From Flammula alnicola (Eukaryota > Basidiomycota > Agaricomycetes > Agaricales > Strophariaceae), in assembly GCA_015499995.1 (NCBI GenBank), contig JADNRV010000142.1, positions 62,001-126,000 on the forward strand: a stretch of 64,000 bases of DNA, in the 5' to 3' direction. The notes beneath the pieces are model-generated. The model ran no database searches and had not been told where the DNA came from. It saw only the letters and a program-made list of their open reading frames with translations. Shown here one piece after another: positions 26,996-61,547 of the stretch. The position numbers were made by a program, and so were the translations under genes. The stretch's first letter is position 1; the number at the start of each line of letters is the position of its first letter.

Positions 26996-27575
26996 CACAT
27001 GGGACAGTGTAACTATGGTGTATATAACAGTTACTAAGGAACCAACAATGTCACAATGGTCACGGTGCTGGACGGACCCAGTCAGGAACAACATATGTAC
27101 TGTGGGAAATGGTCCGGCTAGGATGGCTACAATGTCCCGAGGATCACGGTCGAGACGGATCCGTCTGGGCGCGCCGGCACGCCGAGCGCTGGCCGATCCA
27201 CGGTATTCGGTTAGCCGTCCGGCGCCATTATTTCTGTCGGGCAGCGCGCGCCCCCGAACTATTGGCTGGCGCGGGCACCGGTCAATTTATGATGCCCTGG
27301 TGATGTATATTATGCCATCCCGTAGGGTCTATATATACATTGGATAGCTGTAAACTCTATTTATATGATCAGGCAAGATTGATGCCGACGTTTTCGGCAT
27401 CCTCGCTCCCCGCGTTGGTAGCCCGCTCCATTTTTGGTATCCTCGGCCTCCGCTGTTCGCGTCCTCGGGTGCCGGTCATTTTTTTTCCCCCGGCGATGTA
27501 GGTCAGGCAGTACCGTATGGTGTATACATACCCCTGATACAGTAAAGTAATATTTAGGTGCTCAGGAAATCATGA
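26996..27575 (+). repeat. Left terminal inverted repeat of the KDZ transposon
   Basis: Matches in reverse the sequence at 61547-61095 continuing into 45143-45020. Agreement is almost perfect for the outer 400 bp and weaker toward the inner end, which finishes at TCAGGAAATCATGA. It contains GC-rich and TATA-like stretches but no ORF of interest. Confidence 0.88.
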
Positions 27576-27714
27576 GACAGACGTGTTCAGTAGCCTTGCA
27601 CCCCGAGTTAGCAGCCGTTCAGTTCCATAGCCATATGGACAATAATTCCCATCACATGACTGGTTCAATCTTGGAAAGGAAATCTAGAGAAGCATTCCCT
27701 TTCCGAGAACCATC
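27576..27714 (+). promoter_or_regulatory. Presumed promoter region of the dioxygenase gene
   Basis: 139 bp between the left inverted repeat and the ATG of the TET/JBP gene. No TATA box stands out. Transcription may start in the repeat itself. Confidence 0.35.
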
Positions 27715-28966
27715 ATGCCAGCAGCTGTAGACCTCGCTCTTGAACTCACAGAATCTATTGCTGCCTACATGACTGTCAAATTCCATCAAAAAGTCCGAGG
27801 CCTAGATAGTCCGGTTCCCATACCAAGTGATTGGGACACACACATCTTGTATGAATGTCATCTGGCCTTGGACATCCTCCATCAGGCATACAATAACCGG
27901 AGTAAGCAAACTTCAGTCACGAGGTTATATTACCTTTTATTGATCCATAACAGAGGTAACATCATGGCGCGCCGAGGACTACGTCGCCGAGCTCACCGAG
28001 CGATCAACAGGTCAAATTCTCCGAGTTGAGGCAAAATTAAGGAAGAAGTTCCCTCCCATATATTCACCAACTGTCTACACAATGGACCCATGCATAGTTA
28101 CCGACATAGAGGGTAATATCCTGCTATGGTATCTCCCTAGAGCCCTGACAGCAGAACGTACTGTAAGTCTGTTTGACTAGCTCCCGGACGGTGCCGAGAC
28201 TGACCGGCCTCAGGTGCAAATGTGGGATGACATGAACTTACTTGACAAGTCCCTTCGTATCAGCAAAGGTTCAACCAGTTGGCGAATCAAACCGACATTT
28301 TTCCGAGCTCATCCGGGATGGTTGAAGCCTGGCAATGCCAGTATGTCGCCCGCTTGGTTTCAGCAAGCCCATGAGGTAAGACAATTGTAAACTTATAAAC
28401 TAAGGAGTAATAATTCATTTTTACAGAAATCAAACAAGCTTGAAGTTTCAGTGGAACTCGCGAAGAACCATAGCCTGGCATGGTTGCGGAAACAAGTCAG
28501 AGGCTCAGCTCTGGTCGGCGGTATTTTGAGCATCATCCATCCTGAGCTATATGCTGCCGGAATGGATGCTCTGAGGCAGTTAAACACCGACCCGAGGTCC
28601 GTACACAAGGGCAATCGGCTTGCCGAGATACTCCGAGTATGGAGCTCTCCCTTCACAGTAATGACAGTGATCAGCAACCGCGACCCACCATTTCACCGAG
28701 ACAATGGTTCAGCTTATCAATGGTTCGATATCTTGGTGGCCCTAGGACAGTACAACAATGGAAGAATGGAGTTCCCAGGACTAGGGATGAGGTTCAAGTA
28801 TGACCCTGGCACTGTTGTAGGGTTGGCCGGCAGAGTAGTGCAGCATGGGGCGACATGTCCTGGGAACCGAGCATGTCTGGTATATCACATGAAGAACAAG
28901 GTCATTGAAGCGCTCGGCATACCGAGTCCGTCTTGGATGAACCAATCGAAATATGATCATGTATAG
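27715..28966 (+). CDS. TET/JBP-family 2-oxoglutarate/Fe(II) dioxygenase
   Basis: Four exons (27715-27901, 27954-28162, 28214-28375, 28427-28966) with introns of 52, 51 and 51 nt, all GTAAG..CAG, give 365 residues in one frame. The core shows the double-stranded beta-helix signature of TET/JBP enzymes: PPFHRDNGS with iron ligands His276 and Asp278, then FPGLGMRFKYDPGTVVG, third ligand His326 in VVQHGA, and Arg334 for 2-oxoglutarate in GNRACLVY. Such enzymes oxidise 5-methylcytosine (or thymine) in DNA. Unspliced, the second intron has an in-frame stop, supporting splicing. It converges on the acidic-protein gene 78 bp away. Fungal TET/JBP genes are known to be carried by KDZ transposons; here all ligands are present, so activity is likely. 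Confidence 0.87.
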
Positions 28967-29044
28967 CACAGTTATGTATTTAATCTACCATTCATGAAAG
29001 TCACATAATAGTATATTTAAAGTGGCTCATTGACAAATAGCAGC

Positions 29045-30683
29045 CTACTCGGAATCCTCCCCATCGCTTTCGGAACCCACAGAGCCTCCATCGCAGTTAC
29101 CTTCCTCAAGTTCAGACTCTTCATCTTCACTGACCTCCTCATCCCAATCTCCATCGGCATCTGAATCGCCACTATTGTCATGGTCGCTGTCATCGGAACC
29201 TTCATCGGAGCCTTCGGTGCTGTCAGACTCACGGGCGGAGCCGTCGGAACTACCTGGATGGAAGTCATTTGGCACCGATGTTGGCCCGCTCGCAGATGAC
29301 TGGCTGTCAGAGTCAATTCCAGGAATGATGTCGGGAACTGCGCGAGTAAAGGGCAAGGAAGATTGCTCTTTCACTGGTGGCTCAGCCCACTGGCCATCCA
29401 AATCAATTCCGGGACTCATCTCGGCCACCGATTGAGGAGAGGGGGATGTAGATGCCTTAACCGATGAGGTAGCTGGCGGAGGTTCAGCCCCTGACAGAAC
29501 TTGCGTAAAAGAGGACTGGTGCAGCTGGGGGTGAGGCAGATGCTTGTAGACTTTTGGATTGTAGTGGTGGCGATCACCTGCAGGCTCTCCATCAGCCACC
29601 TTCTCCTTCCCCTTGCGAGTTTCACGTCCGCCCATAGGATCCGGGTGTTTGTGTCTTGGGTACTTCTGGTGATATTCCTTCGGGAGCCGAGGCCCATCCT
29701 TGAAAGGCATACCGTATTTTGAATGGACCTCGTCAAGGACGTCATAAGCTCCGATCCTCGCCGCCGAGCGGTCTGCCGCCTCTTCGCCACCTCTAATTGC
29801 ATTATTGACTCGATTAGTGAGAAGCTGAAGCTTCTCAAAGGCCAACAGCAAGGCCTGGCGCAAAGGACCGCAGCTAGGGCAGGTCGGCGGTGACTCGGCA
29901 TCCGCTTTCGGGGTCGACTCGGTGGCGCCTTTCTGAGTGGAGACGGAGGGTTCGGCAGACATGGGCACCGGTGGTGTTGGCCTTTCAGCCATCCCGGGGA
30001 CAACGCGGTCGCGAGCGGGATTCAGATATCGAACGGTAGCTGATTTACCAGTTTCTATGGTCCTAGCTTTCTGCCTGTCGTGCGCCTAAGAAGTTAAGTC
30101 ATCAGGTAGTGCCCAAATATACCTCCCCAAGTAACTGACCTTGTTGTAAAAGTCGACAAAATGGTTAAACGTATCGAGACGGGTAACACGGCAGGCCTCA
30201 ACCTCCTCCTTGGGCTTGTTCCACCAATACGCATACTCGTCAGTCAAACCAATGATGTTGGAATCGTCAAAAGCCATAAAGTCCATATTGATTGAAGCCG
30301 GGAGTGTGAAGGTCTCGGGACCGAGAGGTGGTTCGTTCGAGAAGATGGCATCTGTGACATCTTGGAGCAGGTAAGGAAGTTCGATTCGGAAGCCATTCAA
30401 TGCGCAGTAGCCGACGTGCGCCATGATCTGTTCCTGTACCATAAGGTTAGAAGAGTGAACTGGAGCTTCACGGCCAAATGCAAAGGCTTACTGCCTCGTC
30501 TTCTAGGTTCCGATGCCAATTCACGTTCAGCCAGTCGCGATCCGCATCCATCAGGGCTCTCAATGCTGTGCGAAGTCTGGCCATCAAGAGGTGAAGCTTT
30601 AAGCGGGCCTCAGCCTCCCGCTCTTCGTATGATGTCAGCATTCTGTCCTGAGGAGACGGGGAAACAAGCCGTGCAAGGGGCAT
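29045..30683 (-). CDS. Acidic protein of the KDZ element, unknown function
   Basis: Three exons (30683-30492, 30433-30140, 30085-29045) with introns of 58 and 54 nt and all phases closing give 508 residues from ATG 30683. The N-terminal 190 residues look folded (helical EEREAEARLKLHLLMARLR, then NGFRIELPYLLQDV and EYAYWWNKPKEEVE). A Pro/Ser-rich middle has a possible CPSCG pair. The last 90 residues are an Asp/Glu/Ser-rich tail (DESEDEES-like). Acidic tails of this kind suggest chromatin or histone contact, but that is inference. It lies 92 bp downstream of the transposase on the same strand and converges with the dioxygenase gene. I do not recognise the family. Confidence 0.7.
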
Positions 30684-30774
30684 AGTCAAGAGATGAGAAA
30701 GAAACAATTGCCTCACTGCATGAAGATGAGATGAGATAAGATCATGTGATATAACATGCCTCACAGCAATACAA

Positions 30775-33700
30775 TTACACTACAAGCCGCCAGGAACACG
30801 TATGATCACTATTGGCGTTCGTAAACATAACTTCTGATACGCGCCCGAGCTCGTTCCACATTGCCATTTGTTGTTCAGCATATGCTCGGTGACCGCGCGC
30901 AATCTGACCGTCGGGATCTCGGTGGAGCAGCCATGTGTCCCGGCGGGCCTTCCATTTCTCGGCCATGTGTACATAGAATCGAACCGTCCATTGCATTTCA
31001 CGTCTCGTAAGAATGAGTTCCTCCGCCCATCGACCTCTTTGTGCTCTCGCCCTGAGCCAATTGACTCGATAAACTGGGATTTTCCGTCAGCATGGCCCCG
31101 AGCGGCAGAAATGAAGATCCTACATTCATTGTAGTATTCACTCTCGGGGACCGAAAGTGTTCCAGGCCGAGCAGAGCTCCAGAACCACGGCAGTCGATCG
31201 GTACTCTGACCATAGGCATTGGGTTCTGACACCGCCGTACTGATGGTGCAATCAGAAATCAGTAGTTCTGGATACTTTACGGCTATGGTGCCCGTATCAT
31301 CGAGGCTCATCATAACCTCACGATTGTGGTTGTAAACACGTCTTTGGAGTTTCCAAATCTTGTTTAGCAGGTTCACCTTATCCCAAGAACGTGTCCGTTG
31401 GGCTCCGATTGCGCCTCGGAGCCTGTTCTTGTATTGCCAGGAAAGCTGTATAACGGCACCTCTAACAAGTTCCAGGGCGTCGTCGGCGTGGCCACTCCGA
31501 ATGTGAAGCTCGGTATCCCGAAGGGATTGAATGAAGGATCGGCGGTCCACCGGGAGATTTGTGAGGACTGCTAATGCAATTGCAGAAGGGAAAGGGAGGC
31601 CTTGCCGCTCGGGGTCCGCTCGGCTAATCCTCGGATTGTGGACTTCGGGATCCTCATTCTCACTGACTTCGGCATCTATCACAGGTGCAGGATTGGCATC
31701 GTAGATACCATTGGTCATCTCTGCACCAAGGTATTCGCTGGCGCTCCGCATGAACCCGTCCACTAGTTTCCTGTTCTGCCTACGCTTGGCCACCAACTCG
31801 AGCTTTTGGGCCGTGGTGGGTGTCAGACCGAGCTTCCTCACATGAGACCGAAGGTCGAATCTAAATAGCTGCTAATCAGAAATGACTTTGATGCCCCGTC
31901 ACAGCGATTAACTTACTGAGCTTCTTCGAGCTTCAAACCCTGAGATATCCATGTTGCCTGCCCTGTTTGTTCTCCGCCCCGCAGTTCTTTCTCGGACAGT
32001 TGAAGCTCAATTTCCCGACGGGTCGGAGCTTTGGACAAAGTAGGGAGAATGTCGGGGAGAGGGGGGAAGACAGACGAACCTTTCTTAACCTTAACTTGAT
32101 AGATGTCCATAACATCGGGGTTGTTCTGGCGACGTCCTTCGGCTGCGATAATCTGTTCAGTCCATTCAGGGATCAACTCTGTCGGAGCTGCCTCGGTCAG
32201 TCCATCGTAGTAGTCTTGGCTGGACTGCTGTTCTTTAACGGCACGGAAATACTTCTTCGTGACGGTAGAAGCTGAATAATACTCTTAAGTTAATGTAGAC
32301 CAGTGCAGAGATAAAACACTAACCCATATTGATGGTCTTTTTCCAGTTTGAGTCACCCATGTGGTCGTCCAGAATCTCCGTTCGGTGGGCCGTGGTCACT
32401 CCGCGTGCACTTCGAGATGTTCGGTTCAACAAACTCCAGAGAGTCTCCAAGATTTCCCCATCGACAATACCAACACCCGGGATATATGTTGTTGCAAACC
32501 GGTAGAGACATTCCTCCTTGTGCCCATGCACATGCCAGAGACCAATGGCCTTCATGAGTTTTAAGGTAGCTGGCAATGTCAGGCCATGTTGCTCCCGGAA
32601 ACGTTTGGTGAGTTTGACATGATACTGACACATAATGTCATAGACACAGAGTGTGCAGCTGATCCCCTCCATGTGGGTTGTTTTGAAGGCTTCGGAGAGG
32701 CTGAAATCCATGCACATTTGTCTCTCTCCCAATTCAAAGTCCACGACGCTGCTCGGGCAGAAGCAGCCATGGCGGGCACAAGCCTGTGCACCAATGCCTC
32801 GGACTCGGCGTCCGGCTGCCACCTTTTCGCCATCTTTATGTGCCCGATGGACATGGCAAGTCGGCTTCTGCGAAGTATTAATTAGCATTAATGGTGCTGT
32901 TATTGCGTCCAACATGCGGGGCACCGAGGATGAATTGGCTCGGTGCCGAGGAGGAGGCCTCCTCGGTGCCATGCAGGTGCCGAGGGCAGGTAACTTTTGG
33001 TGCCTTTACGGGACCGAGAGAGACCTCACCTCGGCGCCATGGAGGCACCGAGGTGAAGGCTGTGTCGGCAGCGTGCGGTCACCGAGACGACGTATTTCTC
33101 GGGACCGTGAGGGCACCGACATAGCATGCACGTCGGCACCTGCATGGCGCCGAGGAGGCGGCTTTCTCGGTGCCACACAGGTGCCGAGGGCAGGTAAATT
33201 TCGGTGCCTTTACGGGACCGAGAGAGACCTCACCTCGGCGCCATGGAGGCACCGAGGTGAAGGCTGTGTCGGCAGCGTGCGGTCACCGAGACGACGTATT
33301 TCTCGGACCGTGAGGGCACCGACATAGCATGCACGTCGGCACCTGCATGGCGCCGAGGAGGAGGCTTTCTCGGTGCCACGCAGGTGCCGAGTGAAGGTAC
33401 CTTTCGGCGCCTTACGGACCGAGTGAAGTACCTTCGGCCTTTACGGACGAGAGACCTCACCTCGGCGCCATGGAGGCACCGAGGTGAAGGCTGTGTTGGC
33501 AGCGTGCGGTCACCGAGACGACGTATTCTCGGGACCGTGAGGGCACCGACATAGCATGCACGTCAGCACCTGCATGGCACCGAGGAGGAGGCTTCTCGGT
33601 GCACGCAGGTGCCGAGTGAAGGTACTTTCGGCGCCTTTACAGGACGAGAGAGACCTCACCTCGGCGCCATGGAGGCACCGAGGTGAAGGCTGTGTCGGCA

Positions 33701-35681
33701 GCGTGCGGTCACCGAGACGACGTATTTCTCGGGACCGTGAGGGCACCGACATAGCCTGCACGTCGGCGCCTCCATGGCGCCGAGGTGAGGTCTCTCTCGG
33801 TCCCGTAAAGGCGCCGAAAGGTACCTTCACTCGGCACCTGCGTGGCACCGAGAAAGCCTCCTCCTCGGCGCCATGCAGGTGCCGAGAACGATTTTCCACG
33901 GAGCCGAGTGGGGGCGTCGGGCACCATTGACTGCCATCTCTGCAGCATAAAACGAACTCACATGTGCGTATTTGTGGGCGTGTTTCGCCGCATCGACTAA
34001 ATGTTCCTCGTATGGCTTTGGCGCTGTCATAAAGGCCTCACCATTGGTAAGGTGGACGTCGTCATGTTCGTTCTTCTGGTTGAGGTGATCTGCTTTGAAA
34101 TTCCCATCGGCACAGAATTTCCTGATATACAGCCACCATAATGGGTCATCGGTCCACTCATCCGGAAGGTTTACACCCGGCTGTGGACACGTTGGACAAA
34201 ACAATCCTAACTTCCCTCTGGCAATTTCGGGCGCGGCTGGGCTTCCCTCGGCATCTCGATCAACCTCCATCAACGGCGGCTCTGCAGCTGCGTCACGCTC
34301 CTGAGGCTCCTGTTCCCCATCCTGTCTCTCGGTTACAGGTTCGTCATGCCCACGGCCATGCATTTCCACAGCTTGAGATTCCTGTATTCACGACTGAGCC
34401 GACGGAGCTCTCGGTACCGGTTGAGGACTGCCTTCGGGAATGCAGGACAGGTCAGCCGCCGCAGCTTAGCATAATACTGATATGCGGTTGTTTTGCACTC
34501 GAGATTCGAAAGTCGAAAGTCATTCAGGACGTTCATTGTGAAGACCGTTTTGATGATGTCATAGGTATTCGGGAACAGGCCCATCTCGATGTATTGAAGC
34601 TGTTCTTCAACCTCGGGATGGCAACCACATTTTACCACAGGCAGATGGTGGATCCCTGAGACATCGACAATGGTGATGAATTTGTGCCCATCGTTGTCCG
34701 TCGGTCGCGGGCGAGGCAGTGTCTCGGGATGGGCAGCATTAACATCGAAGTCGTCCTCGATCTCTTCGTCATCTGCATCTTCGGGATCGCCGACGACACC
34801 GCCATCGGCATCCCGCCATATATCACCTTCAAAACTATCCTCTTCAGTAATCGCTGGAGGTGGACCCATGTCGTAGCCTTCTGCCCCCTGATTTGGCTCT
34901 GTGTACTCTATTTAGCCATGTCTGGTGAACATTTGTAGGACTCACCGTCGGGATCCCGAACTGGCTCCCGGCCAACGTCGCACTGCATTCCTTGATGCCC
35001 GAGGTGTAGTTTAACCCCAACCTCCCAAAGAGCTCCAACGTGGAAGTATCGTCCATTCCATTTCTCAACGCGATGGAACAGCAGGAATTGGTGTTCATTC
35101 CTGCAGCACAGTCCACATAATAGTCTGCCACCCACACATTCGCGGCACCGCCACTTCGCCGACCGCACCCGGCATGACTGACATTTCAGACTGGGATCGC
35201 TCGGCGCTTCCAATGACAACACAGTCTGCAGATGGTATCCTCGTTTTGGTATCCACTCGCGTAGGTAATCATTCTGGGACTACCAAAATTGAAAAGACAC
35301 GCAACAAATGAACATGATTCTTACTTTTCCTCGGCCTACCGAAGGTAGGTTTTGCACATTTTGAATGACTTGGTCATCTGTCGGATCTCCATCATACTGT
35401 TGTGGCTCGGGCCACTCAGCCTGGTGAGCGGCAACTACCTCGGGCTGCACAGGCATCGAGCTTTGAGTGGGTGTCCCTCGGGGTTGCTCTGCACGCTCCT
35501 CGTCAACTGCCTCGTCAAACCAGTTAAGCTCCTCGGGGTCACTATCATTTTCCCCGGAGTCTACTGATTGTACAGCTTGGACACGTCGGCGCATGAGAGG
35601 GTTGATTTGGATGGCAATGGGGGACAGGAAGGGTGTACTTGCGCAAAGACGATCACCTTTTGATATTTTACCTCGTGGCAT
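30775..35681 (-). CDS. KDZ (Kyakuja-Dileera-Zisupton) transposase with CxC2-type Zn cluster
   Basis: Seven exons: 35681-35325, 35279-34946, 34898-33962, 32867-32324, 32271-31917, 31860-31124, 31073-30775. All phases close if one A is restored in the run at 34363-34365, giving about 1187 residues. After an acidic N-terminus comes the Cys cluster from about residue 152 (CQSC, WRCREC, LCGLCCRNEH, FHRVEKWNG), then the MGLFPNT..FTMNVLNDF block. The transposase core holds CARHGCFCPSSVVDFELGER (D586), VYDIMCQYH (D620) and GVGIVDGEILETLWS (E681), candidates for the RNase H-fold acidic residues. HRTEILDDHMGDSNWKK and a C-terminal VNWLRARAQRGRW helix region follow. The fourth exon is preceded by a 1094 nt intron swollen by a tandem repeat. 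Expected role: cut-and-paste transposition using the 0.58 kb inverted repeats. The single-base gap may be a sequencing error. Confidence 0.93.
32868..33961. repeat. Tandem and inverted repeat array inside a transposase intron
   Basis: An intron (minus strand GTGAGT at 33961, CAG at 32868) that is 1094 nt long where all others are 45-56 nt. It is filled by about four direct copies of a roughly 200-227 bp unit (landmark CCATGGAGGCACCGAG at 33037, 33240, 33467 and 33667), followed by an inverted partial copy (about 33760-33895). Units are built from GGCACCGAG/CTCGGTGCC half-palindromes and could fold strongly in RNA. Confidence 0.88.
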
Positions 35682-36718
35682 GGTAGGATAATTTATCTTC
35701 CGCACCAGAAGATCATGAGGTATCCCTGACACACGAAGGTCGTGATGCTCGGCCTCCGAGAGTCAGCTGTTCTACCACAAAAGGAGATCACATGTGGTCC
35801 ATGCGTGGCATTCTATTCTTGCTATCTCTCTCGGATTGTAAATGCAAGTAGGCAGGCGACAGGAACGTGGGCAATGTGAGGCTTCCACTGCAAGAATGCG
35901 ACATGTATACTAGGTAACACTGACTCGGAGGCTGACTGACAGGAAAGACAGAGCAGTTGGGAAAGATCTAAAGATTTTTGTACTATGCGCGATTACCTAG
36001 GAATGTTGCCACGAGTGATATCTTGCCATAAAATGTGTCCGGAGAGCAATCTGAGTTGCCACTCTGACGATATTAAAAAAAAGGTGCAGAAGACACTGTT
36101 TGTGCAAGATCAGAACGAAAGTTTACAATGTATGCAACTAACCTGTGGTCTCTGGAAAAGAAAAATCTGAATCTCAACAACTACACCATGGAATCTCTTC
36201 CGGGGTATCTCATTTTGTAAAGGCTCTCAATAAGTAGGCCTCTAGACTATATAAAACCACTGTTGGCAATATTCTAACTCCCCATTGGAAAAAGAGAGCT
36301 CACCTGCAAACATGTCGCTTCCCAAAAAAGGCAATGATCGGACTAAGCGATGTCATTTAGGCAATTGGCTGGGCAGGGCCATCGGCGCGGGTGATCGAAA
36401 TCGTGCGATCTTGATCCTGAGCGTCCGATCTTGATCGAAACCTGCAGATCATCAGGTACCATTCAGGATGAAGACGCAGGGCCACTGACCCGACGACCCC
36501 GACGGAGATAATGATAATAAATGTCAGACAGGTGGCCATTGTCCGGTCCGATATTGAAAGGGGGTGTCGGGAGGATGACGTCGGACCACTGCCCTGCAAC
36601 CCCCGACGGAGATAATCACAACTAATGTCACAACATCAGGTGATTATCAGATGCGATAGTGAAACAGGACCCCTTTTATAGGGTGGTATTGTCGGAAAAT
36701 CTGATTCCTTCCACCCCC
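35682..36718. promoter_or_regulatory. Divergent intergenic region between transposase and lysine-rich gene
   Basis: 1037 bp without a credible ORF. A TATATAAAA box lies at 36248-36256. Two imperfect direct repeats of about 60 bp (around CCCGACGGAGATAATGATAA at 36494 and CCCGACGGAGATAATCACAA at 36601) occur before the plus-strand gene and may be regulatory or transposase-binding. It presumably holds both promoters. Confidence 0.4.
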
Positions 36719-38839
36719 ATGCCTCAACCTCATAATGATGTTGCACATTCCAATGTTGAAGAGAATGATCCCCAAATCGACACCAATATGGATGACGATG
36801 GACCCGACTCCCAAATCTGGACAGCAAAGGAAAAGGCGCTCCTCAAGGCTCATGTTGAAGGATACCGAGCGGCCCCGAGGAAAACCAAGGCGAGCTATAT
36901 CGTGAACACCGTAATTCCCAAAATCAAGGAATTGTGGAAGGGCCGATACTCGAAGAAAAGCATGAACAATGATAGCGGTCTGAAATCAGAGTGGGCCAAA
37001 AAGAAAAAGGTGAGTATTTGATGCGTCTCGGCTTCCGCGCGTGGTCAATTCGGGCAATTTTGCAGTCTATTTTTAATTGGTTCCCGAATCATGCACCGAC
37101 GGAGCGCCGGATGAAAATCCCGGGGTTCAATTTGAAGGTTACCTTCGACTCAGTCGTTGCCGAACGGAAGAAAAAGGAAATTGAGGAGGAGGCTAAGGAG
37201 CAAGCCGGAGGGGAACATGAAAGTAAGCATTGGATCAAATATTATCAGGGAGCGAAGAAGGCAGTGAAGGAGGGATTGAGTGATGAGGAAAGGGCCGAAT
37301 ATGAGCGGGAGGTTGAGGAGTGGAAAACGAGAGGAGTGCCGAAAGAAGTTCAAGCTGCGTACGTATATTTGCCACACCGAGTGTCGGCCTGCCGATGTTG
37401 AATTTATACGTAGGACGGTCGCACGGCGTGGAAACAAGATCATCCGTGAAATGGACAAGCTCCGGTGGAATAGCATGCGAATGCGAACAGTGGCATTTGA
37501 ATGTCATTATAAGGCCGATGGCAAGATAGCGTTTTCCAGGTAAGGGCCGAGGCAGCCGAAGTAGAAACCAACTAATACTGCTGTCAGCTATGATACTCAA
37601 AGTATGCAGACCAATGTCCCGACAAATGTACCGACGTTTCTTCAGTTCAACCCCACGGCCCATAGAGAGTTCAAGAAGGCATATGTGAAGTATATAAAAC
37701 ATATCTCTTCCTTGGAGAGTGGGACGCAACAACCGACTGTGACTGCGGCGGGGCCGACGGGAACAATTTTCAAGTTGGCCGATCTGCAGTTCAATCCGTC
37801 GGGATTACCTCGGGTTCCCGATGTCATGAAGAATACTCAAGGGATCGAAAGCAGTCTGATGCAGCAATCAATGATTAGAGTTTACTGGACGAAGCACTAC
37901 GGTATGGAAGCAGTACCCTACATTGGGGATGGTATTAATTATCCGGACAGCTCTTGCCAGGGGAAAGGAAGGGAAAGTGCCGTTCACGGCTATTGCCCTT
38001 CAATCGTCAGAATTTATTGACACGGCTGATCTTCCAACCCGAACCCCATTCCAAGACCCAGGGAGGTACAATGGTGGACAAACTCATGCAATACTCAAAT
38101 TATGGAGAACAAGGCAAGCGAGGGGGAACTTCCCTTCAAGTTCAACTCCATACTTGGGCGTGACAAGACGTCCGATTTGACCGAGTATCCCGACGGCATA
38201 TTTAATGATTTCCATCCTGCAATGTCCTTGACAAACCACAGACCGCCTTCGGCTACGGAACACCTGCGACACATTTCACCCGACGGGGACGAAGATGACC
38301 CTGATTCCAGTGAGGAATTCAGACTTCCGAAGGCTGCATGGGACACCGAAGATGATGAAGAGGAGGGAGACCATAACAGCAACGGCGCGCCGACATCCCC
38401 GCCCAGTCCCGAGAAGACACCATCGGTGGATCGAGAGACAAGCCAGGAGCACATGGGGAGCGAAAGTGACGCGATAATTGCGCTGACTAGGACACGGCGT
38501 GGGTTTAATGGTAATGTTGTGTTGTCAGATGACAGCACAGGTGGTCAGACTCCGGATCCGCCTAGGATGCAGGACATGCCGTCTAGTCCGACGGTGCTGG
38601 GTTCCTCACCTGGGCAAGCAATGAGCCAGCCAGTGAAACTTACCAGTGTGAGACGAACTCGGGGACGTTCAGCAAGAGGAGAGCAACAGTTAGTTACACC
38701 GGCGCCGAGCGGTCCCGCGACACCTGCCCCTGTGGAAGCAACTCGGCAATTACGTTCAACAACGAAGAAAAAACCTGCATCCGAAACTACCCCACCTGTT
38801 CCAACTGTGAAGAGGGCCTCCCGAAGTAGAAAAAGATAA
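36719..38839 (+). CDS. Lysine-rich, HMG-like cargo protein of the KDZ element
   Basis: Six exons (36719-37009, 37066-37358, 37414-37539, 37588-37901, 37951-38065, 38119-38839) with introns of 48-56 nt close in phase to 619 residues. The N-terminus has an acidic start, then WTAKEKALLKAHVEGYR and KIKELWKGRYSKK, which resembles a Myb/SANT-like or similar DNA-contacting helical region. A charged stretch HWIKYYQGAKKAVKEGLSDE with ERAEYEREVEEW looks like HMG-box-type helices. The middle has FNPTAHREFKKAYVKYIKHI. The C-terminal 200 residues are Ser/Pro/Asp-rich and end in basic RTRGRSARG and KRASRSRKR. Function is not known; DNA binding is inference. Similar proteins accompany transposons in mushroom-forming fungi as far as I know. 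Confidence 0.75.

Positions 38840-49941: not shown

Positions 49942-49976
<35 letters not shown>
46819..49976 (+). mobile_element. Tad1-like LINE, 5'-truncated, inside L9 ORF1 (L10)
   Basis: Starts in the ORF2 linker (CTCTCTTGGAGTCC) and runs through RT, RNase H, 3' UTR and a poly(A) ending at 49976. Flanked by GGTGAAGATGGCG at 46806-46818 and 49977-49989. Confidence 0.93.
46824..49435 (+). pseudogene. LINE L10 ORF2: linker, RT, RNase H, Cys/His tail
   Basis: One open frame from 46824 to 49028, then a second from 48857 to 49435. The break is a G5 run at 48866-48870 where the related copy at 18533 and the flanking codons call for one more base. RT motifs FRPIVLLNTVGKLIEK, FDLAQFFPSLNH, GVGQGSALSP and SYVDDGTL are intact. 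RNase H AGVDGSVP, STDAELDAI and FTDSMHAAR are intact. The C-terminus has CVCGKYPQTRAHIFKC. The endonuclease is missing by truncation. Confidence 0.9.
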
Positions 49977-49978
<2 letters not shown>

Positions 49979-52253
49979 TGAAGATGGCGATGCTCGCCTC
50001 TCCTCTGTCCATGGATATCATGCTCGCGGGCCCCCTCGCGTCATCCGCAACTCGAAGGCGAGCTCTACCGCCACGCCTTCTTCGAAATATACGACTCGCA
50101 ATCGGGTCAACGCGCGAAGCGTCTTATCAACAAGACCTTCATGTTCCGTGGCAGGGTGATTCTCATTCGCCCAACCACTGTCAGCCCCGGAGTCCCCCTC
50201 TGCACTCGTTGCTGGAGGTGGGGCCACCCGAGGAACTCCTGCAAAGCGCGCCAGCCGATCTGTGCGCGCTGCTCTGGCCCGCATGAGGCGGAGGTGCATC
50301 GCATCGCTGCCTCATGCTGCAAACCTCACCCGGAGGCTAAGCCCCCGACCAAAGGCACTCCGCTTGGTACGGACTGCCCCCACACCGCGCGGTGCCCTTC
50401 GTGCCGCAAGGATCATTGGGCCACTTCGAGCCATTGCTCGTTCTGGCGTCACCGCTTCGTCCTTCCTTGGATCGAGGCTAAATATGCTGAGGTACGTGAT
50501 TTTTGGCTAAATCGTCGTCCCACCCATCGCTCACATAACGTAGCTTAATGCCAGTACAACCAATGCTGGATGAGGTGCGGGTGCTGAGTTGGAACGTGGC
50601 CAGGGACGGGATGTCCCTGGATGTAATTCTATCTACATGTAAAACATATATGATATTATTTTCGTGCAAGAACCCCCTTGGCGACACATAAGGACCGCCC
50701 CGTCTGCTAAAACCAGAAAGGGCGAGGATGTCATAGGCGCGCCGAACCACCCAGATTGGCTGGCAATGGTCCGTGCACCCACCAATGCTGATGAGCGACC
50801 CCGGGTTATGACCTATGTTTCGACTAGGTTGGCCCGGTATCGTCCGTCTATACGAAGGGATGTGGTCGATCACCCCGATATACAGGTCCTGTCACTCTCA
50901 ACAAGTGCCGAGACCTTCCTTTTGATGAATGTCTATTCTGACGCGGACCATGGAGCCATTAATTGGCTCAAGGCCCACGACACTACACTTCCTCGTTTCC
51001 ATTTTATGGGCGGGGACTTCAACGCACATTCCGAGGACTGGGACGAAGGTCACAGTGGTCGGGAGGGATGCGATCTCTCACTGCAGCAGTCCGCTGCTAT
51101 TCTTGGGCTTGAACTGGCTGCTTTTGGCAATCCAGGGCCCACGCACATACCAAGAGATCCCACCAAGCGCAAAACGGTGATCGATCTCGCTTTCGTCCCA
51201 CCTAACCAGGTGATTGACGGTACTGTTGTCCGATGCCCGGACATTCAACTCAAATCGGACCATATTCCGATTTCGATCACACTGGACATCTCTCCCGCCC
51301 CTAACGGGGCGGTTCGGATGTCTCTTCCTACTGATGATGTTCCGGCGTTCATCAATTCTATTAGTTCTGGGCTCCGGGCCATTGACCCGACTGCCCCTCT
51401 AAACTCCGAGGAACACATCGAGGCTGCTGCGCAAGCGGTGGCTTTAGTCTTCTCTTCTGCATGGGAGTCCCATGCTAAAGAGTCCTTTGTTACCCGGCGA
51501 TCTAAGCCCTGGTGGACCCAGGAGTGCTCAGACGCCCTTGACACGTTCCGGCGCAGTCGCATGCCCGAGGACTGGAAATCCTTTCGGAAGATCATCCGAG
51601 ATGTCAAGCGCGAGTTCTTTGATCAACGGATCCATGAAATCGCGTCTGCTAACAAGCGCCCGTGGGACCTCATGAATTGGGTCCAACAGCGCAAACTTCC
51701 TCCCTGTGAGGCTCTCCATTATCGTGGCGAGCCTTGCAACGACATGCCCGCCCTTTGGGACGCGCTCCACGGTACCTACAACTCTGCGTCTGGCAGAGTG
51801 TTTGATGCTAATTTGTTGAACTCTCTCCCTACGCTTCCTGTTAGGGAGTGGGTTCGCTTCTCTGCGCTGGAATTCACGGAGGCTCTCTCTGCGTGTTCTG
51901 GTCTATCCGCTCCGGGTCCGGATCATGTCAATTGGTCCCACCTGAAGGGGATAGTACGTCGCGACCCTCATTCTGTTGAGGTCTTCCTCTCGATTGCCAA
52001 TGCCTGCATGCGTGTGGGCTATTGGCCATCTGTATTTAAGGATTCGCTGTCGGTGATTATACCTAAACCGAATAAGCCATCTTACTCTGCACCTAAGGCA
52101 TTCAGGCCTATTGTTCTCCTGAATACCGTTGGTAAATTAATTGAGAAAATGATCTCAAACCGCATCCAGTTCGACGCTGTCGGGCTGGACATTTTCCATC
52201 CTAACCAGGTGGGTGGAGTGCGTCAGCGCTCCACTGAGGATGCTGGGCTCTTC

Positions 52254-52286
<33 letters not shown>

Positions 52287-52797
52287 ACAATTTTTATTCC
52301 GAAGCTCGATCGCAGCTCGGACTCTAACTAATACAAACGAGTACGCTACAATACCCAATGCAAAAGAAAGAAATTGGTCGCTCGCAGGGGAGCGTGCGGC
52401 GCGCGCGAGCGCGACGCGGGCGAGACTGCACTGCAGCCTGAAACCCAAATAGCGGACCTCGCAGCCCAGGAAATACAAACGCGTGGCGTTGTTAACGCTA
52501 CCGAGCGTAAGGTAGATATGGATTAAAAGGGTGGACAGGGGGGTCACCCAGATGAAGTCAGAGCTTGCCCGGCTCTCCCCACTTCTTCGGCAAACTCGAC
52601 GTCCTCGTTACACCAAGGCGGGTCCTCCACGGGATATCGTGCCAAAAGCCGCCCACTAAGGCCGACAATCGAAGCCTGCGACGAACAGGCCCTCGCCCTC
52701 ACGGGTCCGGAACAGTCCAACGTGGAAACACCTGCGGGCACTAGGTCTTGGGCCAAGGCCCCAACGACACCTAGGATCACCCCCCGTCCAGAGTCCC

Positions 52798-55700
52798 TCA
52801 TCCGACTCCGGCCTGGGGCCGATTGAACGCAAACGCACTAGGGTTGTCGCTCAAAAATTTCTCAAGACCCCATACTAGGTACGGGGCCCTGTGAGGTAGC
52901 ATCAAGAGCTTGGGGCACTTGAAAATATGTGCACGAGTCTGTGGATATTTCCCGCACACGCACCCGAGAGCCAACGGGTCGTCGATTTTGAACCGCTCGT
53001 AGTACGAGCCGATCGGAGCATGATTCGTTATTACACGGCACATGCGGGCGAACAACTGAGAGTTGCGGCCGCCGACTTCAAGCCACGGCCCACCGCGAAC
53101 GGGGGTCGGACGGAGAGGATTACCCTTTAGATCCTCTAACTCCAAGAAATTGGAGCCAAGTAAATTGGGAACCTCGTCGACCTCTGTCGACCAGGCATCC
53201 CGCGCTACAGTGTCAGCTTTATTCTTAAGCCAAGCGATAGATAAAGGGGTATTCGGTGTAACAGGTACACCGGGAAACCCCAAGACGAGGTCATGAGCCT
53301 CTTGATGGATGTCCCACTCCATATCGGAGGGGGACTCTGCAAAAACGACTTTACGGTTACCACCCCCTGGAACCATCGTTCAAGTGTCCGACAAACGATC
53401 AGAGACGAGCCCTGATGAGAATGCGGGGAAGGATCCACGGCCATTCGAGCAGCATGCATCGAATCCGTGAAAATAACTATCCTGGTGACGTCTCCGAATG
53501 CTACCATTGCGGAAATGGCCACCGAGATGGCATCGAGCTCAGCATCAGTGCTAATAGCTCGTCCGGAAGAGTGACATCTGGCTAATACCAGAGCACCCTG
53601 CCGTTTGATAACAATGCCGTTGGCGGCTTGCCAGGGCCCCGGAGGGACCGAGCCGTCGACACCAGCATATGCGGTACCTGGCTCATCGTCACACTTTTCG
53701 ATGAGTTTGTCCAGTATGATTTTCCACGCAGCATCAGGGTCTTCGCCCTGCTGATACGGGGTTTGTCCATCCATGTAAACCGGCTTGCATGCCGGTCCAT
53801 TAGACGATGTCCAGGCCTGGCGTCTGGAGCAAAAGGCTCCAGTTCTTCCAGACCAGCGGGGTGGAACAATGCATTGCCCACAAGTCCGCCGCGCAGCTTG
53901 TCTCGCTGACGCTCGGTAAAGTTCTCAATCGCCATCTTGTGAGGAGTGGCTTTCTTAAGTAAAGGGCCAGCCATAAATGACCGGACCGGGTGAGTATCAG
54001 ACAAGAGAGAAATCCGAGCAACTGCCCGAGAGTTCAACCTGTCCAAAAGTAAGGGCATGGGCAGAAGGCCGGCAAGGGCCTCGACGCCATACGAGGGAGA
54101 AGTGCGGAAGCACCCAGTAATCCAAAGCCCAGCTTTACGCTGAACATTGGTAAGTTGCGCAATAAGCCCCTTGTTACGGGCCTTGCGGAAATACCACATG
54201 CGGTAGCCATAAGTAATTATGGGGATAACGCACGTGCGGTAGAGGAGGCGCTTAAGATGTGGCGGCAGCCCTCTGGTAGAAGACCCAAGCATTCTCATCG
54301 ATACAACCGATGTGAATCCTTTGGTGGAATAGTATCTCACATGCTCCTTGAAAGTGAGCTTGCGATCAAAATAAAACCCAAGATATCGCCAGAACGGCTT
54401 AGGCTTGAGCCATTTGCCTGCAGTGTAGGGTTCCTCACCCAAATCAATGGCAGGGTTATAAACTGAAGCCGTGTTGTCAAGTGAAAAATCTCCGACTTCG
54501 CGTGCTCCAAAGCGAGAGCGAACTTGGTGAAGAGCTCAAATATAATCTTGTAAGCCTTACGAAGGTTTACAACATTGGGATCGAGTCCGGTCTCCTGAGA
54601 AATCAGGGTACCATCGTCAACATACGACAGAAGGTCGACCGCAAGATGAATCTCACGGCACCTCTTGTAGAAAAGACGCATGATAGGCGCCAAGTAAATA
54701 GCCGACAAGACAGGGGACAGGGCAGAGCCCTGTCCCACGCCCACGTCTGCCTGCAGAGGGTCTGACAAGAAGGAATTCCACGCATACTGCGTCTTCCGTT
54801 CTACCAGATAAGAACTAAAAACTTGACCACCAGCGGTGGAAAGCCAAGCTTCCGGAGAATAATCACGAGAACTTCGTGATTAAGAGAAGGAAAGAACTGA
54901 GCAAGGTCAAAGGCGAGGACGCTAGTCCTCAACCCTCTAGCCCACCCAGCCCTCACCATGTGTGTCAAAAACAACCCGCGTCCTCGGTGGAGCGTCCCCT
55001 GACGCCTCCAACCTGATTCGGGTGAAATATATCCTGCCCGACAGCGTCGAACTGAATGCGGTTCGAGATCATTTTCTCGATGAGTTTCCCCACAGTATTC
55101 AGAAGCACAATGGGCCTGAACGCCTTAGGGGTAGAGTACGAGGGCTTGCCGGGTTTGGGGATAATAACCGACATAGACTCCTTAAAGGGCGACGGCCAAT
55201 GACCCACACGCATGCAGGCATTAGCAATCGAGATAAGGACCTCCACAGAGTGAGGGTCCCGACGTACAATCTTCTTCAGGTGGGACCAATTGACATGATC
55301 CGGACCCGGAGAAGAAAGACCGGAACACGCAGAAAGAGCTTCCGTGAGTTCCAGCGGGGAAAAGGGAGCCCATTCCCGAACAGGAAGTTGCGGGATGGAC
55401 TCCAAGAGAGCAGCATCGTACGTTCTATCCGACGCTGAATTGTACGTGCCATGCAGGGCATCCCACAAGGCAGGCAAATCATTGCAAGGCTCTCCACGGT
55501 ACTGGATCGCCTCACTGGGAGGGAGCTTCCGTTGTTGGACCCAATTCATAAGGTCCCACGGTCGCTTATTAGTGCCCGCGATCTCTCCAATGCGATCATC
55601 GAAGAAAACACGTTTCGTTTCCCGGACTAACTTCCGAAAGGATTTCCAATTCTCGGGGGAGCGATCCCCACGAAATTTGAGCAGGGCGTCAGAGCATTCC

Positions 55701-56657
55701 TGGGACCACCAGGGCTTCGAACGCTTAGTAATAGAGGTCTCTTTGCATGGGCAGCCCATGCCTCTGAGAAAATCTGCGCCACTTCTTGAGCCGCAGTTTC
55801 AATCTGATCCTCGGTAGTCATCGGGGCCAGCGGATCTACAGCCGCAGTCCCGAAGTGATAGAATTAACGAAAGCCTAACAGACTCCGTAGGAAGAGACAT
55901 CCGAACCGCCCCGTCAGGGGCGGGAAGGATGTCCAGTGTAGTATAAATCGGAATATGTCCGATTAAGCTGGATGTCCGGGCATCGGACAGTAGACTCATT
56001 CACCACCTGATCGGGGGGAACAAAAGCCAGATCGATCACCGTGCTGCGCTTGGTGCGATCTCTCGGAATGTGTGTGGGCCCAGGGTTGCCAAAAGCGGCA
56101 AGCTCAAGTCCAAGGATGGCCGCAGATTGTTGCAGCGATAAGCACACCCCTCCCGAGGGAACCGGGGTCCCAGTCCGGAGAGTGTGCGTTAAAATCTCCC
56201 ATCATTAGATGACATCGGGGAAGATCTCGATCATGATCCGAGCCAGTTAATAGCTCCATGATCGGAATCTGAATACACGTTCAGAAGGTAAAAGGAACTC
56301 TCGCCCGAGGAGAGCGAGAGAACCATGATGTCGGGATGATCAATAATATCCCTTCGTTGAGCCGGGCGATACCGGGCCAGCCTAGTCGAAACATAGGTCA
56401 TGACCCGGGGTCGCTCGTCAGGGGTGGTGGGGCGCACCATGGCCAACCAGTCTGGATGGTTGGGCGCGCCGACTACATCTTCACCCTTTCTGCTCTTCGC
56501 AGACGGGGCGGTTCTTATGTGCCTCCAGGGAGGCTCTTGGATGAATAACACATCATATATATTTGTACATGTGCTAAGTATTACATCGAGGGACACCCCG
56601 TCCCTCGCCACGTTCCAACTCAGAACCCGTATCTCATCAAGCGGTTGTGCCTGCATT
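52798..56657 (-). pseudogene. LINE L11 ORF2, several frameshifts
   Basis: Reads endonuclease (56657-55915), linker and RT (about 55860-53582) and RNase H to the CVCGKYPQTRAHIFKC tail and stop at 52798. Breaks occur near 56150-56235 (endonuclease), 55800-55920, 54830-54960, about 54470, 53750 and the C5 run at 53362-53366, the same place as in L10. The catalytic SYVDDGTL and RNase H residues are still encoded. It is more decayed than L9 and L10. Confidence 0.85.
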
Positions 56658-58323
56658 AAGCTACGTTTTGTGAGTAGAGTGCACGACGATGATTCCAATA
56701 ATCACGTACCTGGGCATATTTGGCATCGATCCATTCACGATCGTACCGGTTGTGCCAGAAATGACACTTTCTGTCGTAAGGTTTGTGCGCGCCCTTACAA
56801 TTAGGGCAGCGCGCGGCATGAGGGCAGTCCACCCCAGTGGGGGTAGGTGGAACAGGTGGAGTTGCCTTGGGATTTCCCTTGCAACACGAAGCGGCGATAC
56901 GATGTACCTCCTCCTCGTGTGGCCCGGAGCAATGAGCGCAGCGGGGCTGGGGAGCCCTGCAAACGTTGGATGGATGGCCCCACCTCCAGCACCTAGTGCA
57001 GAGAGGGACGCCGGGGCTGGCGCGTGCCGCAAGAATGCGGTAAGCCCTACCACGGAACATGAAGGTCTTGTTAATAAGAGCCTTCGCGCGGGCTCCCGAC
57101 TGAGAGTCCCAGATATTGAGGTACGCCACACAAGTGGTGCTCTTCGAGGAGTTGCGCTTAATCCGAGGCTCGGATTTGAAAGGCGCGAAGACAGAAAGTG
57201 GAGAGGCAAGAATTGCCATCTTCACTTCGGCCCCTGTGGTGAGGGTTTTACTGGCGAAATCGCCGTAAGCAGGAAGATCAAGTACCCGAAGGTACGAGGT
57301 GGAAGAAGGGAGGCTGACCGACACCTTGACAGTGTCAGACTCCGGAAGGATTCTATGCACCCATCCTCGGGCGATATCGAGATCGCTCTGGGTGGATACA
57401 AGGGAGGTGGCAAGAGAAATGCCATCGTATGCGTGCGAGGCGGACAGCATCCGATTGGCGCTGCCTGCATCGCGGAAGGCTTTGTCGATCTTGTGGACCA
57501 GGTCGACGAGTTTAGTGTCGTGCGGCTTCGTGTAGGGGCCGCTAAACGCGAGGAGGATCTGCTTGCGTGATGGGCCAGCAGTGGTGAAAGAGGGGTGCCT
57601 CTTCTGCCTCTTGGCAGCAGAAACCCGCTCATCGATGGCCGCTTGCATCGCAGGGACGCGGGGCGGAGGTGGATACCTGGCAAGAGCACTAGGGCCCATG
57701 GCAGGATCTCGTTGCGACAAAGGGTTGGCCGCCGCAAGCTCAGCAAATGTGCGCTTACGGGGACCGGCGCTCCAAGGAGCACCGGATTGCCAACCCTTAG
57801 GTCGATGAGGAATAGGAGGCGGAGGCCTCAAATAAGAATCCGCCGGCCTCTTGCGAGACTGGCGAGGAGCAGGAGGGCCCTGCTTCGGCGCAGCCGAAGG
57901 CTGCGACGAAGCTGGGCCCACCTTGCTCGTGGGGGCTCTACCCTTCCCTTTATCCTGACGAGGAGGGGGAGGGCGTGAGGTGGTGTCTGTCTCCATGGCA
58001 GACGACTCCGCATCACTGGAATGGGGGTCGATCTGGGCGAAGGGGACGGTGTTGGGCCTCATGACGGTGTCGTCTGGGCCTGAGATGGTCTCTCCGATGA
58101 CATATCCCAGAGAGAGGGCTTCGTCTCCGACGACGGACGCGGTGATGTCGGTCCATCCGGTAGATTCAGCTGCGGACACCAAGGAGGCGATCGCAGCAGC
58201 GAGATCAGTTGCAGGGCGAGCAGGGGCATCGTCAGATGAAGTCGGGTTTCCCCTCATCCATGCTGCAATGGCCCTCGCACTCCGGGACATGTCATCGATT
58301 GCAGATGTGAGCTCACCCTCCAT
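56656..58323 (-). pseudogene. LINE L11 ORF1, 5'-truncated but open
   Basis: An open frame of over 550 codons: Pro/Ser-rich region, conserved KLVDLVHKIDKAFRDAG domain, then knuckles CTRCWRWGHPSNVC, CAHCSGPHEEEVH and CPNCKGAHKPYDRKC. It ends with a TAATG stop/start overlap. The N-terminal part (about 115 residues by comparison with the copy at 61875) was lost on insertion. Confidence 0.88.
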
Positions 58324-61094
58324 CTGGGCTCTTCCTGACACACATTGTGCGCGCAGGCTGGGCTAAGGGTTTAAAGACTAGCGTGGTCGCCTTTGACCTC
58401 GCTCAGTTTTTCCCTTCACTTAATCACGATGCGCTTGTGATTATCCTTCGGAAACTTGGCTTCCCTCCATTGGTGGTCAAGTTTTTCGCATCTTATCTGG
58501 TAGAGAGGAAGACGCGGTATGCGTGGAACTCCTTTTTATCAGACCCGCTACAGGCAGACGTGGGGGTGGGCCAGGGATCGGCCTTGTCCCCTGTCTTGTC
58601 GGCTATTTACCTGGCGCCTATCATGCGCCTATTCGAGAAGCGGTGCCTCGACCTTGGGTTGAGGGTTGACCTCCTCTCGTATGTTGATGACGGCACGCTC
58701 ATCGTGCAAGATGAGTGGCTGGATCATAATATTGCGATGCTGAAGAAGGCATACGCTGTTATCTTCGAGCTGTTCAAGGCTTTTGCCTTGGCGCTCGAAC
58801 ACGACAAGTCTGAGATCTATCATTTTGATCGGTCTCATGCTTATTATAATCCTAGTATCGATCTCGGGTATGCACCTTACACCGGAGATCGTGCTAACTA
58901 CCTCAAGCCCAAGCCGTTTTGGCGGTACCTGGGCTTCTACTTCGATCGCAAGCTCACTTTTAATGAGCATGTGCGCTATTACTCCACCAAGGGTTTTACA
59001 TCGGTTGTCTCGATGAAGATGCTTGGCTCCTCTACTCGGGGGCTTCTGCCTATGCAGAAGCGACTCCTGTACCGCACCTGTGTGGTCCCCATATTCACGT
59101 ATGGGTATCGCATGTGGTTTTTCAAGGGTGCCCGCAATAAGGGCCTCATCAAACAGCTTACGCAAGTCCAGCGTAAGGCTGCTCTTTGGATTACGGGTGC
59201 ATTCCGTACTTCGCCCTCGGGAGGGGTGGAGGCCCTTGCGGGCCTCCTACCCATCCCTATACTTCTCGAGAGACTGCGCGACCGCTCCACTGTGCGGGTC
59301 GCCACTCTCTCCGACACTCATCCGGTCCGGTCATTTATGTCCGGGTCATCACTTAAGCGCGCGACCCCCCATCCTATGTCGGTTGAACGCATGCCTGCCG
59401 CCCATCGCCGTAAGGTGACGGGTGCTCTTATGGATAATGTCAATTATTCCAGTGTCCCTGTCGAGTCCACGGAGCCTTTTGCTCCTGAGGCTCGGCCGGG
59501 TTATCGAATCCTCGATCGGTACGCCGATCGGTTCAAGTGGCTTTCCAAGCCTCGCTTCAGCAGGTCCGAAGATCCTGAAGCGGCCTGGAAGCTTATCCTG
59601 GATGCGTCTCTCGAGTCTCTCGAGGACGATCCAGACGCTGCATACGCTGGTGTTGACGGCTCCTGCCCTCCGGGGTGGCAAGCCGCCACTGGTGTTGTTA
59701 TCAAACGGCAGGGCGCGCAGGTTTATTCTGGGTGTCATGCTGCCGGGAGGGCCTCGTCTACGGATGCAGAGCTCTTTGCTATTCGCGTAGCCATCTCCAA
59801 TGCCATTGGCTTTGGGGATGTCAAACACGTTACTATTTTCACTGATGCGATGCATGCCGCGCGCCTCTCGGTGGATCCCTCGCTGCACTCCTTTCAGTCT
59901 CAGTCACTGATGGTGTGTCGTATACTTGAACCATGGTTCAGGCACTCGCCTGACCATAAGGTTACCTTTATCGAGTCCCCCTCTGATATGGAGTGGGATA
60001 TTCAAAATGAAGCACACGATCTCGTTGCTGGTATGCGCGGCGTTGCCGTCGTTCCTACCACCAAGCTATCTCTCCAGTATGTCCGCGACTTCGTGGACAA
60101 ATCGGCACGCGCAGATTGGAAACAAAGAGTTTCTGATCAGCCATTCCTGCTTGGCTCCAACTTTATGGAGCTGCAAGGGTTGAACGGGGACCCTGTCCAG
60201 CCTAGTCCCACTCGCGGGGGACCTTGGCTTGAAGCCGGTAGTCAGAGCGTTTCGCTCTTTGCCCGCATGTGCCGTTTAATTACGAATCATGCTCCGATCG
60301 GCTCGTACTACGAGCGGTTCAAAATCGATGACCCTAGGGCCCTCGGTTGTGAGTGTGGGGTTTATCCTCAGACTCGCGATCATATTTTCAAGTGCAAGAA
60401 ACAGCCTTGGACTCGCCGGAAACCGAAACTTGTTTCGGAGCTGGCGACGTATCTGTTGGAGCACCCTACGGCGTTCTCCTTCCCCCGGCACCCTGCTGGA
60501 GTCGGATGAGGGACTCTGGGTGGGGGGCGATTCTGGGTGCGAGCGGCGCCGCGGTCAAAGCGGCCTGTTGCCCACAGGTGTTTCTGCATTGCGTCACAGT
60601 GATGGCGGACTTCGCGAGAGGCGAGAGGGCTGGTCGTTCCAGTCCTGGCGGGGTCGACTCCCTGAGTTGGCTTCGTGCATCACTTGCAGAGGACCCGACC
60701 TGGTTGACGGCGGTGGGGGCTTCGGCCCCTGCTTAGCTATGACCACGTTGATTTTACTGGTGAATCGGGGAGGGCCTGGCAGGCTCTTCTCACATCTGGA
60801 TGACCCCCTCGTCCATCCCAATATTCCTATCTGCCGTTCGTGCGGTAGCGTTAACAACGCCGCAACGACGGACAATCTGTAGTTGCGAGACTACCTATCT
60901 GGGTTTCAGGCGGCTGCGCCGTCTCACCCGCGCCGCGCTCGCGCGCGTCGCATGCTCGCCGTCGAGCCAACTTCTTTCTTTTGCACGCGTAGTTTACCGC
61001 CTCCGTTTGTATTAGTTAGAGACCGGACTGCTTTCGTGCACCGGTATAAAATTGTTGATTTAAAAAAAAAAAAAAAAAAAAGCCGCGACAAGCC

Positions 61095-61547
61095 ACCCGA
61101 GAATGCCGAAAATCGAGCGGAGTAACAACGCAGGGAGCGAGGATGCTGAAAATGTCGGCATCAATCTTGCCTGATCATATAAATAGAATTTACAGCTATC
61201 CAATGTATATATAGACCCTACGGGACGGCATAATATACATCGCCAGGGCATCATAAATTGACCGGTGCCCGCGCCAGCCAATAGTTCGGGGGCGCGCGCT
61301 GCCCAACAGAAATAATGGCGCCGGATGGCTAACCGAATACCGTGGATCGGCCAGGGCTCGGCGTGCTGGCGCGCCCAGACGGATCCATCTCAACCGTGAT
61401 CCTCGGGACATTGTAGCCATCCTAGCCGGACCATTTCCCACAGTACATATGTTGTTCCTGACTGGGTCCGTCCAGCACCGTGACCATTGTGACATTGTTG
61501 GTTCCTTAGTAACTGTTATATACACCATAGTTACACTGTCCCATGTG
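61095..61547 (-). repeat. Right terminal inverted repeat of the KDZ transposon, outer part
   Basis: Reverse complement of 26996 to about 27451, almost identical over its outer 400 bp. It ends TAGTTACACTGTCCCATGTG, the inverse of the left terminus. Confidence 0.9.

Follow-up and report, generated by a model that had tools for sequence, protein, structure and literature searches.

The name KDZ is said to come from work by Iyer et al. in 2014. Complete transposons that carry a TET gene have been described in 11 lineages, including the Kyakuja elements of the Agaricomycetes (Kojima 2025, PMC12730594). According to the sections of that description available to us, Kyakuja elements have 7-bp target duplications and CA..TG ends, and two families from Laccaria are without terminal inverted repeats (TIRs), a feature that is not given there as part of the Kyakuja definition. 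Escape from methylation has already been proposed for TET-bearing transposons in the same work, where it is also stated that the function of the TET proteins was not validated and that oxidised methylcytosine is found on retrotransposons as well, so that the action may be untargeted.

The sequence analysed here (the window) is a 64,000-nucleotide stretch from Flammula alnicola (Agaricales). A first-pass annotation had described within it a complete KDZ-TET transposon and had considered a defined element of this kind not to be standard. That judgement has been overtaken: Kojima published complete TET-bearing Kyakuja transposons in December 2025, and the novelty of the present element is reduced for this reason. 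Our preferred reading, to which we assign a probability of roughly 0.6, is that the window contains a damaged copy of a six-gene family in which the KDZ protein likely cuts and pastes the element and the TET protein is predicted to oxidise the element's methylcytosine.

Structure and damage of the window copy

In the window, a pair of TIRs (26996-27575, and 61547 back to 45020) encloses six genes (Table 1). The outer parts, 26996-27446 and the reverse complement of 61097-61547, are 95.8% identical over 452 bp. When the alignment was extended to 27575 on the left and across a LINE nest to 45020 on the right, 522 of 582 columns (89.7%) agreed, and the score of 853 compares with a best of 35 among 200 shuffles; similarity in the inner 130 bp is much below that of the outer 450. 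The LINE nest is flanked on both sides by the same 13 bp, GCCGCGACAAGCC, and this duplication, together with the alignment, bears out the earlier proposal that the right TIR is to be rejoined across the nest. The termini, CACATGGG..CCCATGTG, are of the CA..TG type, and the left boundary is also seen in a second copy (C77), there with another flank. Without both LINE inserts the element measures 17,595 bp (26996-45143 plus 61095-61547, less the 1,006-bp LINE insert at 43710-44715), as the first estimate of about 17.6 kb had it. Read from the left TIR, the order is TET (+), gene 2 (-), KDZ (-), gene 4 (+), gene 5 (-), gene 6 (+) and right TIR.

Table 1. Features of the element, with positions counted from the first base of the window
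Feature	Position	Strand	Basis or remark
Left TIR	26996-27575	+	Terminus CACATGGGACAG; match strong in outer 450 bp and weak in inner 130 bp
Gene 1, TET/JBP dioxygenase	27715-28966	+	PF12851; four exons, 364-codon ORF model without stop
Gene 2, acidic-tailed protein	29045-30683	-	Gene model; C447 relative; Hypholoma homologue
Gene 3, KDZ transposase with CxC2	30775-35681	-	PF18758, PF18803
Tandem and inverted repeat array in KDZ intron	32942-33886		Self-comparison
Gene 4, orphan protein BDZ97DRAFT_1925910	36719-38839	+	Gene model, annotation
Gene 5, charged protein	39315-41731	-	Gene model; weak Zn2Cys6-like match
Gene 6, conserved part (gene start lies upstream)	43330-44865	+	C447 and C119 matches; split by LINE fragment
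LINE, truncated, in gene 6	43710-44700	-	15-bp duplications GGGGTGGAGAACTCT at 43695-43709 and 44701-44715
Right TIR, inner part	45020-45143	-	TIR alignment
LINE nest within right TIR	45144-61081		13-bp duplication at 45131-45143 and 61082-61094
Right TIR, outer part	61095-61547	-	TIR alignment; terminus CCCATGTG

The TET/JBP domain of gene 1 was matched above the Pfam cut-off (PF12851, E-value: 5.8e-20). The KDZ domain was above its cut-off as well (PF18758, E-value: 3.1e-36); with the gene 3 model it reached 138 bits against a cut-off of 26.6, and the CxC2 domain (PF18803) was matched too. Genes 2, 4, 5 and 6 were modelled as spliced, and with these models and Pfam matches the reported content of a KDZ transposase, a TET/JBP dioxygenase and four further spliced genes is confirmed. 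Gene 5 of the window copy has a weak match to PF00172 (22.1 bits, cut-off 21), and its relative in copy C447 has no Pfam match; no Pfam family scored above the cut-off for genes 2, 4 and 6. The automatic model of gene 4 was mis-spliced near its end, and the annotated BDZ97DRAFT_1925910 was preferred; the predicted fold of this protein, based on a four-sequence alignment, had a mean pLDDT of 32.7. Proteins were also compared with a collection of 5.8 billion sequences by a search that reaches only relatives with exact words in common. Four matches, all from F. alnicola, were found for the C447 gene 4 protein, and two for gene 2, from F. alnicola and Hypholoma sublateritium (with the best 7,994 word-sharing candidates scored). 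The TET protein gave 12 matches, seven of them organism-named: Flammula, Hypholoma, Psilocybe, Agrocybe, Hebeloma, Crepidotus and Pluteus.

The window copy is damaged: both ends are present, and gene 6 and the right TIR are broken by LINEs. Compared with C77, the reading frame of the window KDZ gene is shifted by one base near 34362, and at the matching position the KDZ gene of C447 has a single continuous frame. C77 itself shows single-base length differences within TET and gene 4, and sequencing error is a possible source of the single-base differences in all three genes. The repeat array in the KDZ intron is shorter in C77 (gaps of 204 and 228 bp). The window copy is probably no longer autonomous. 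The description of the element as complete holds for its two ends but not for gene 6, which is split, for the KDZ frame, which is off, or for the target duplication, which is absent.

The transposon family in the F. alnicola genome

The 74.4-Mb genome (861 contigs) was scanned with the terminus CACATRGGACAGTGTAACWAT, allowing up to three mismatches, and with the reversed terminus as a control. The scan gave 41 matches, compared with 3+3 in the control. Twenty of these form ten facing pairs, while 21 are unpaired. The pairs are the window copy (C49), C59 (19,085 bp), C119 (17,851 bp), C264 (16,698 bp), C415 (18,690 bp), C447 (16,679 bp), C548 (18,765 bp), C9 (11,185 bp), C590 (16,842 bp) and the short C323 (3,205 bp). 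KDZ and TET matches lie between the ends in each of the nine long pairs, and in each the TET match is 1.5-1.8 kb from one end. The family ends are CACATRGG..CCYATGTG, paired around KDZ and TET. That the 580-bp repeat is a solo LTR or an unrelated repeat is ruled out by these facing ends; furthermore, the terminal repeats are inverted, not direct as an LTR retrotransposon or solo LTR would need. The first-pass annotation had staked its reading on a genome search for copies with the same termini and on dispersed solo LTRs or KDZ copies with other ends not turning up: the search returned the ten facing pairs, with KDZ and TET inside all nine long ones, and one of them, C447, carries all six genes collinearly. 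The transposon family is real.

Exact 7-bp target duplications were found at C59, C119, C264, C548, C9 and C590, or six of the ten pairs. C323 has a duplication matching at six of seven bases and C447 an imperfect pair; no target duplication was found at C415 or the window copy. A test for 8-bp duplications was failed by all five pairs to which it was applied.

Copy C77 represents 10.8 kb of a second member of the window subfamily, located at another site and cut by the start of its contig. It differs from the window copy by 31 substitutions in 10,796 aligned bases (0.3%), nine of which lie beside the contig start. C447 and C119 form a diverged subfamily with about 64-71% DNA identity to the window copy in the longer matched pieces, and their TIRs of 488-540 bp are 92.0% and 96.3% identical, respectively. 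C447 carries a counterpart of each of the six genes of the window copy, with order and orientation conserved, and the pieces of C119 that were examined match genes 1, 2, 3, 5 and 6. C323 has a perfect 1,044-bp TIR, and its ends, compared over about 300 bp, are 83-90% similar to those of C447 and C119; it gave no blastn match to the window (E-value threshold: 1e-6) and no tblastn match to the query proteins (E-value threshold: 0.01). Seven other regions with terminus-like ends (C856, C534, C140, C210, C201, C223 and C205) likewise gave no match to the query proteins, with one exception. A KDZ-like stretch is present in C201.

Between C447 and C119, dN/dS was 0.26 for TET (381 codons), 0.36 for gene 2 (388 codons, with two further codons of C119 aligned to stops), 0.125 for part of KDZ (606 codons), 0.22 for part of gene 5 (398 codons, 12 gapped) and 0.35 for gene 6 (450 codons). 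The ratio is below 0.4 in all five genes compared, two of them partial. For gene 4, comparison of 335 codons between the window copy and C447 gave a pN of 0.25 and a saturated pS of 0.79; dN/dS between these two copies is at or near saturation, with pS values of 0.66-0.79.

The origin of the window copy is less straightforward than that of the family. It is flanked by AAAACAG and CGCTGTT, and no target duplication joins the two sides. The left flank lies inside a repeat that is matched 31 times across the genome (counting itself) and that from our own inspection of its frame reads like a retroelement gag gene, and the right flank lies inside a different repeat, with 26 matches including itself. 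With flanks in different repeats and no common duplication, a simple intact insertion in the window is unsupported. There is an even chance that the window copy is a chimera of two copies of the (real) family, made by recombination or by the assembler, and that 26996-61547 never moved as a unit. C415 is in a like state, with flanks that match those of C264 and C548, and this pair indicates that chimeric joins, whether biological or assembly-made, occur in this genome. On the other hand, a matching 13-bp duplication bridges the LINE nest, the genes follow the same order as in C447 as far as the right TIR, and the target duplication may instead have been lost later.

CpG-biased change and the predicted role of TET

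Transitions between recent copies fall predominantly at CpG sites: nine of ten between the window TIRs (outer 415 bp), four of five between the TIRs of C119, and 11 of 13 between the window copy and C77 with the repeat array excluded. The C447 TIR pair disagrees, with one of ten. In a comparison set up post hoc, when the pattern had already been seen, and with control LINE pairs that were hand-picked, that overlap one another and whose divergence may largely be older than their insertion, the three comparisons without C447 (24/28) exceeded both 12 LINE pairs (239/656, Fisher p = 2e-7) and the four youngest LINE pairs (41/131, p = 2e-7). Under the same limits, p against the LINE pairs was 5e-4 when the C447 TIRs were included (25/38) and 0.058 for the three TIR pairs alone (14/25). 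For the older divergence between C447 and C119, 178 of 424 transitions are at CpG. Seven of the nine CpG transitions between the window TIRs have the T/A state on the right TIR, which bears the LINE nest.

An excess of CpG transitions between recent copies is expected if the elements are methylated, and the bias suggests deamination of methylated CpG within them. The observation is new here, and it provides sequence evidence that these TET carriers are methylated. Under the preferred reading, that methylation would be the mark on which TET acts, and TET would keep the TIRs and promoters from silencing. The Kyakuja-type transposase would act on the TIRs and move the element, the same enzyme may act in trans on the short 3.2-kb copy, and some of the four other proteins may aid DNA binding.

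Alternatively, TET may be a passenger, or may have another role, for instance in transcriptional regulation or in producing a lasting modified base, and give the element no protection. Kojima's caution about unvalidated function and perhaps untargeted action (PMC12730594) leans this way, as does the persistence of CpG-biased change in the F. alnicola elements; TET is nevertheless present in all nine long pairs, and its dN/dS of 0.26 likewise argues against a mere passenger. We consider this alternative a serious one but less likely than not. A more elaborate version of the protective role, in which the six genes would form a self-contained anti-silencing module, is unlikely: the zinc-cluster-like and other proteins would bind the TIRs as a landing platform and bring TET, and methylation would be rewritten before the transposase acts. 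With its exact ends, near-identical second copy and gene-less derivative, this multi-copy element offers a test bed for the idea that TET counters methylation.

Comparison with described KDZ elements

The F. alnicola family resembles Kyakuja, as far as the available text describes it (Kojima 2025, PMC12730594), in its KDZ transposase, AG-type TET, CA..TG ends, 7-bp duplications and Agaricales host. The assignment to AG-type is made from homology to Coprinopsis cinerea CcTET and from conserved residues. The C447 TET relative matches CcTET (8jkk and 7vpn, E-value: 8e-40), and the TET of the window copy and C447 retains the metal-binding HRD (HxD) motif and the Asp at position 337, an Asp described as essential for TET activity on 5mC (PMC12730594). 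Position 331 differs: the window copy has Ser there, C447 has Ala and CcTET has Gly; it is Gly or Ser across Kojima's Kyakuja set (PMC12730594).

Relatives of genes 1 and 2 are present in Hypholoma sublateritium (HYPSUDRAFT_148770, the TET, and HYPSUDRAFT_1067936), and as the longest contig given for each has the same length (110,833 bp), they are probably linked.

Cryptococcus neoformans KDZ1, KDZ2 and KDZ3 (PMC12810828) likewise combine a KDZ transposase with TIRs, of 139-241 bp in elements of 9-11 kb. They differ from the F. alnicola family in having a CxC1 rather than a CxC2 domain and duplications of 8 bp (KDZ1) or 4-8 bp (KDZ2 and KDZ3) rather than 7 bp, and TET is not mentioned in the part of their description available to us. 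It is improbable that the family belongs to another KDZ branch, such as Zisupton or an undescribed long-TIR branch: the lack of TIRs in the two Laccaria families (PMC12730594) and the 241-bp TIRs of KDZ1 (PMC12810828) would fit such a placement, but the duplications are exactly 7 bp long, against 8 bp in Zisupton and Dileera, the ends are CA..TG, and the TET is closest to CcTET, described as AG-type (PMC12730594).

A search of titles and abstracts in the open-licence literature found no other long-TIR, TET-bearing KDZ element and no paper on F. alnicola transposons. Based on duplication length, termini and predicted TET type, we provisionally classify the family as a structural variant of TET-bearing Kyakuja. 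Unlike the two Laccaria families, it has TIRs of 488-580 bp (window copy, C447 and C119). Long TIRs and a full gene set, the part of the first-pass claim of novelty that stands, extend beyond the Kyakuja text available to us (PMC12730594): to that description the family adds TIRs of about 0.5 kb, a conserved six-gene set in which four genes are co-conserved with KDZ and TET, and a gene-less derivative.

Intron repeat array and terminal repeats

In the array carried in an intron of the KDZ transposase gene (table), aligning the window copy with the second copy of its subfamily, on contig C77, leaves two gaps, one of 204 bp and one of 228 bp, although outside the array the two copies are only 0.3% different. 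The inter-exon stretch corresponding to this array in the diverged relative on C447 is approximately 0.4 kb long. When the window terminal inverted repeats were compared (26996-27410 against 61547-61133), 7 of the 9 CpG transitions were found in the right repeat, which holds the LINE nest. One possible reason for this excess is the spread of methylation out of the nest.

Features of the window and of the Flammula alnicola genome (G000)
Feature	Location	Context
Repeat array, tandem and inverted copies	window 32942-33886	within KDZ intron
Further KDZ transposase	G000 C49:133460-133837	close to window, on its right
TET genes L043-L047	G000 C323:355796, C235:392351, C268:24478, C588:20551, C779:212696	

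Element ends on other contigs

One element end, together with its flank, recurs on three short G000 contigs (C726:6515, C814:2736 and C828:3111); these are likely assembly duplicates of a single insertion. The copy at C415:11344-30033 appears complete; its two flanks are those of the copies on C264 and C548, and it is therefore a recombinant or a misassembly.

Other KDZ and TET genes

The neighbouring KDZ transposase shows approximately 27-29% identity to that of the window. Five TET genes (L043-L047) all lie within one repeat, with approximately 98-99% identity across 0.7-2.1 kb. Because the genome search gave no KDZ matches on C323, C235, C588 or C779, and none within 17 kb of the TET gene on C268, these genes may be carried by a mobile element of a different kind.
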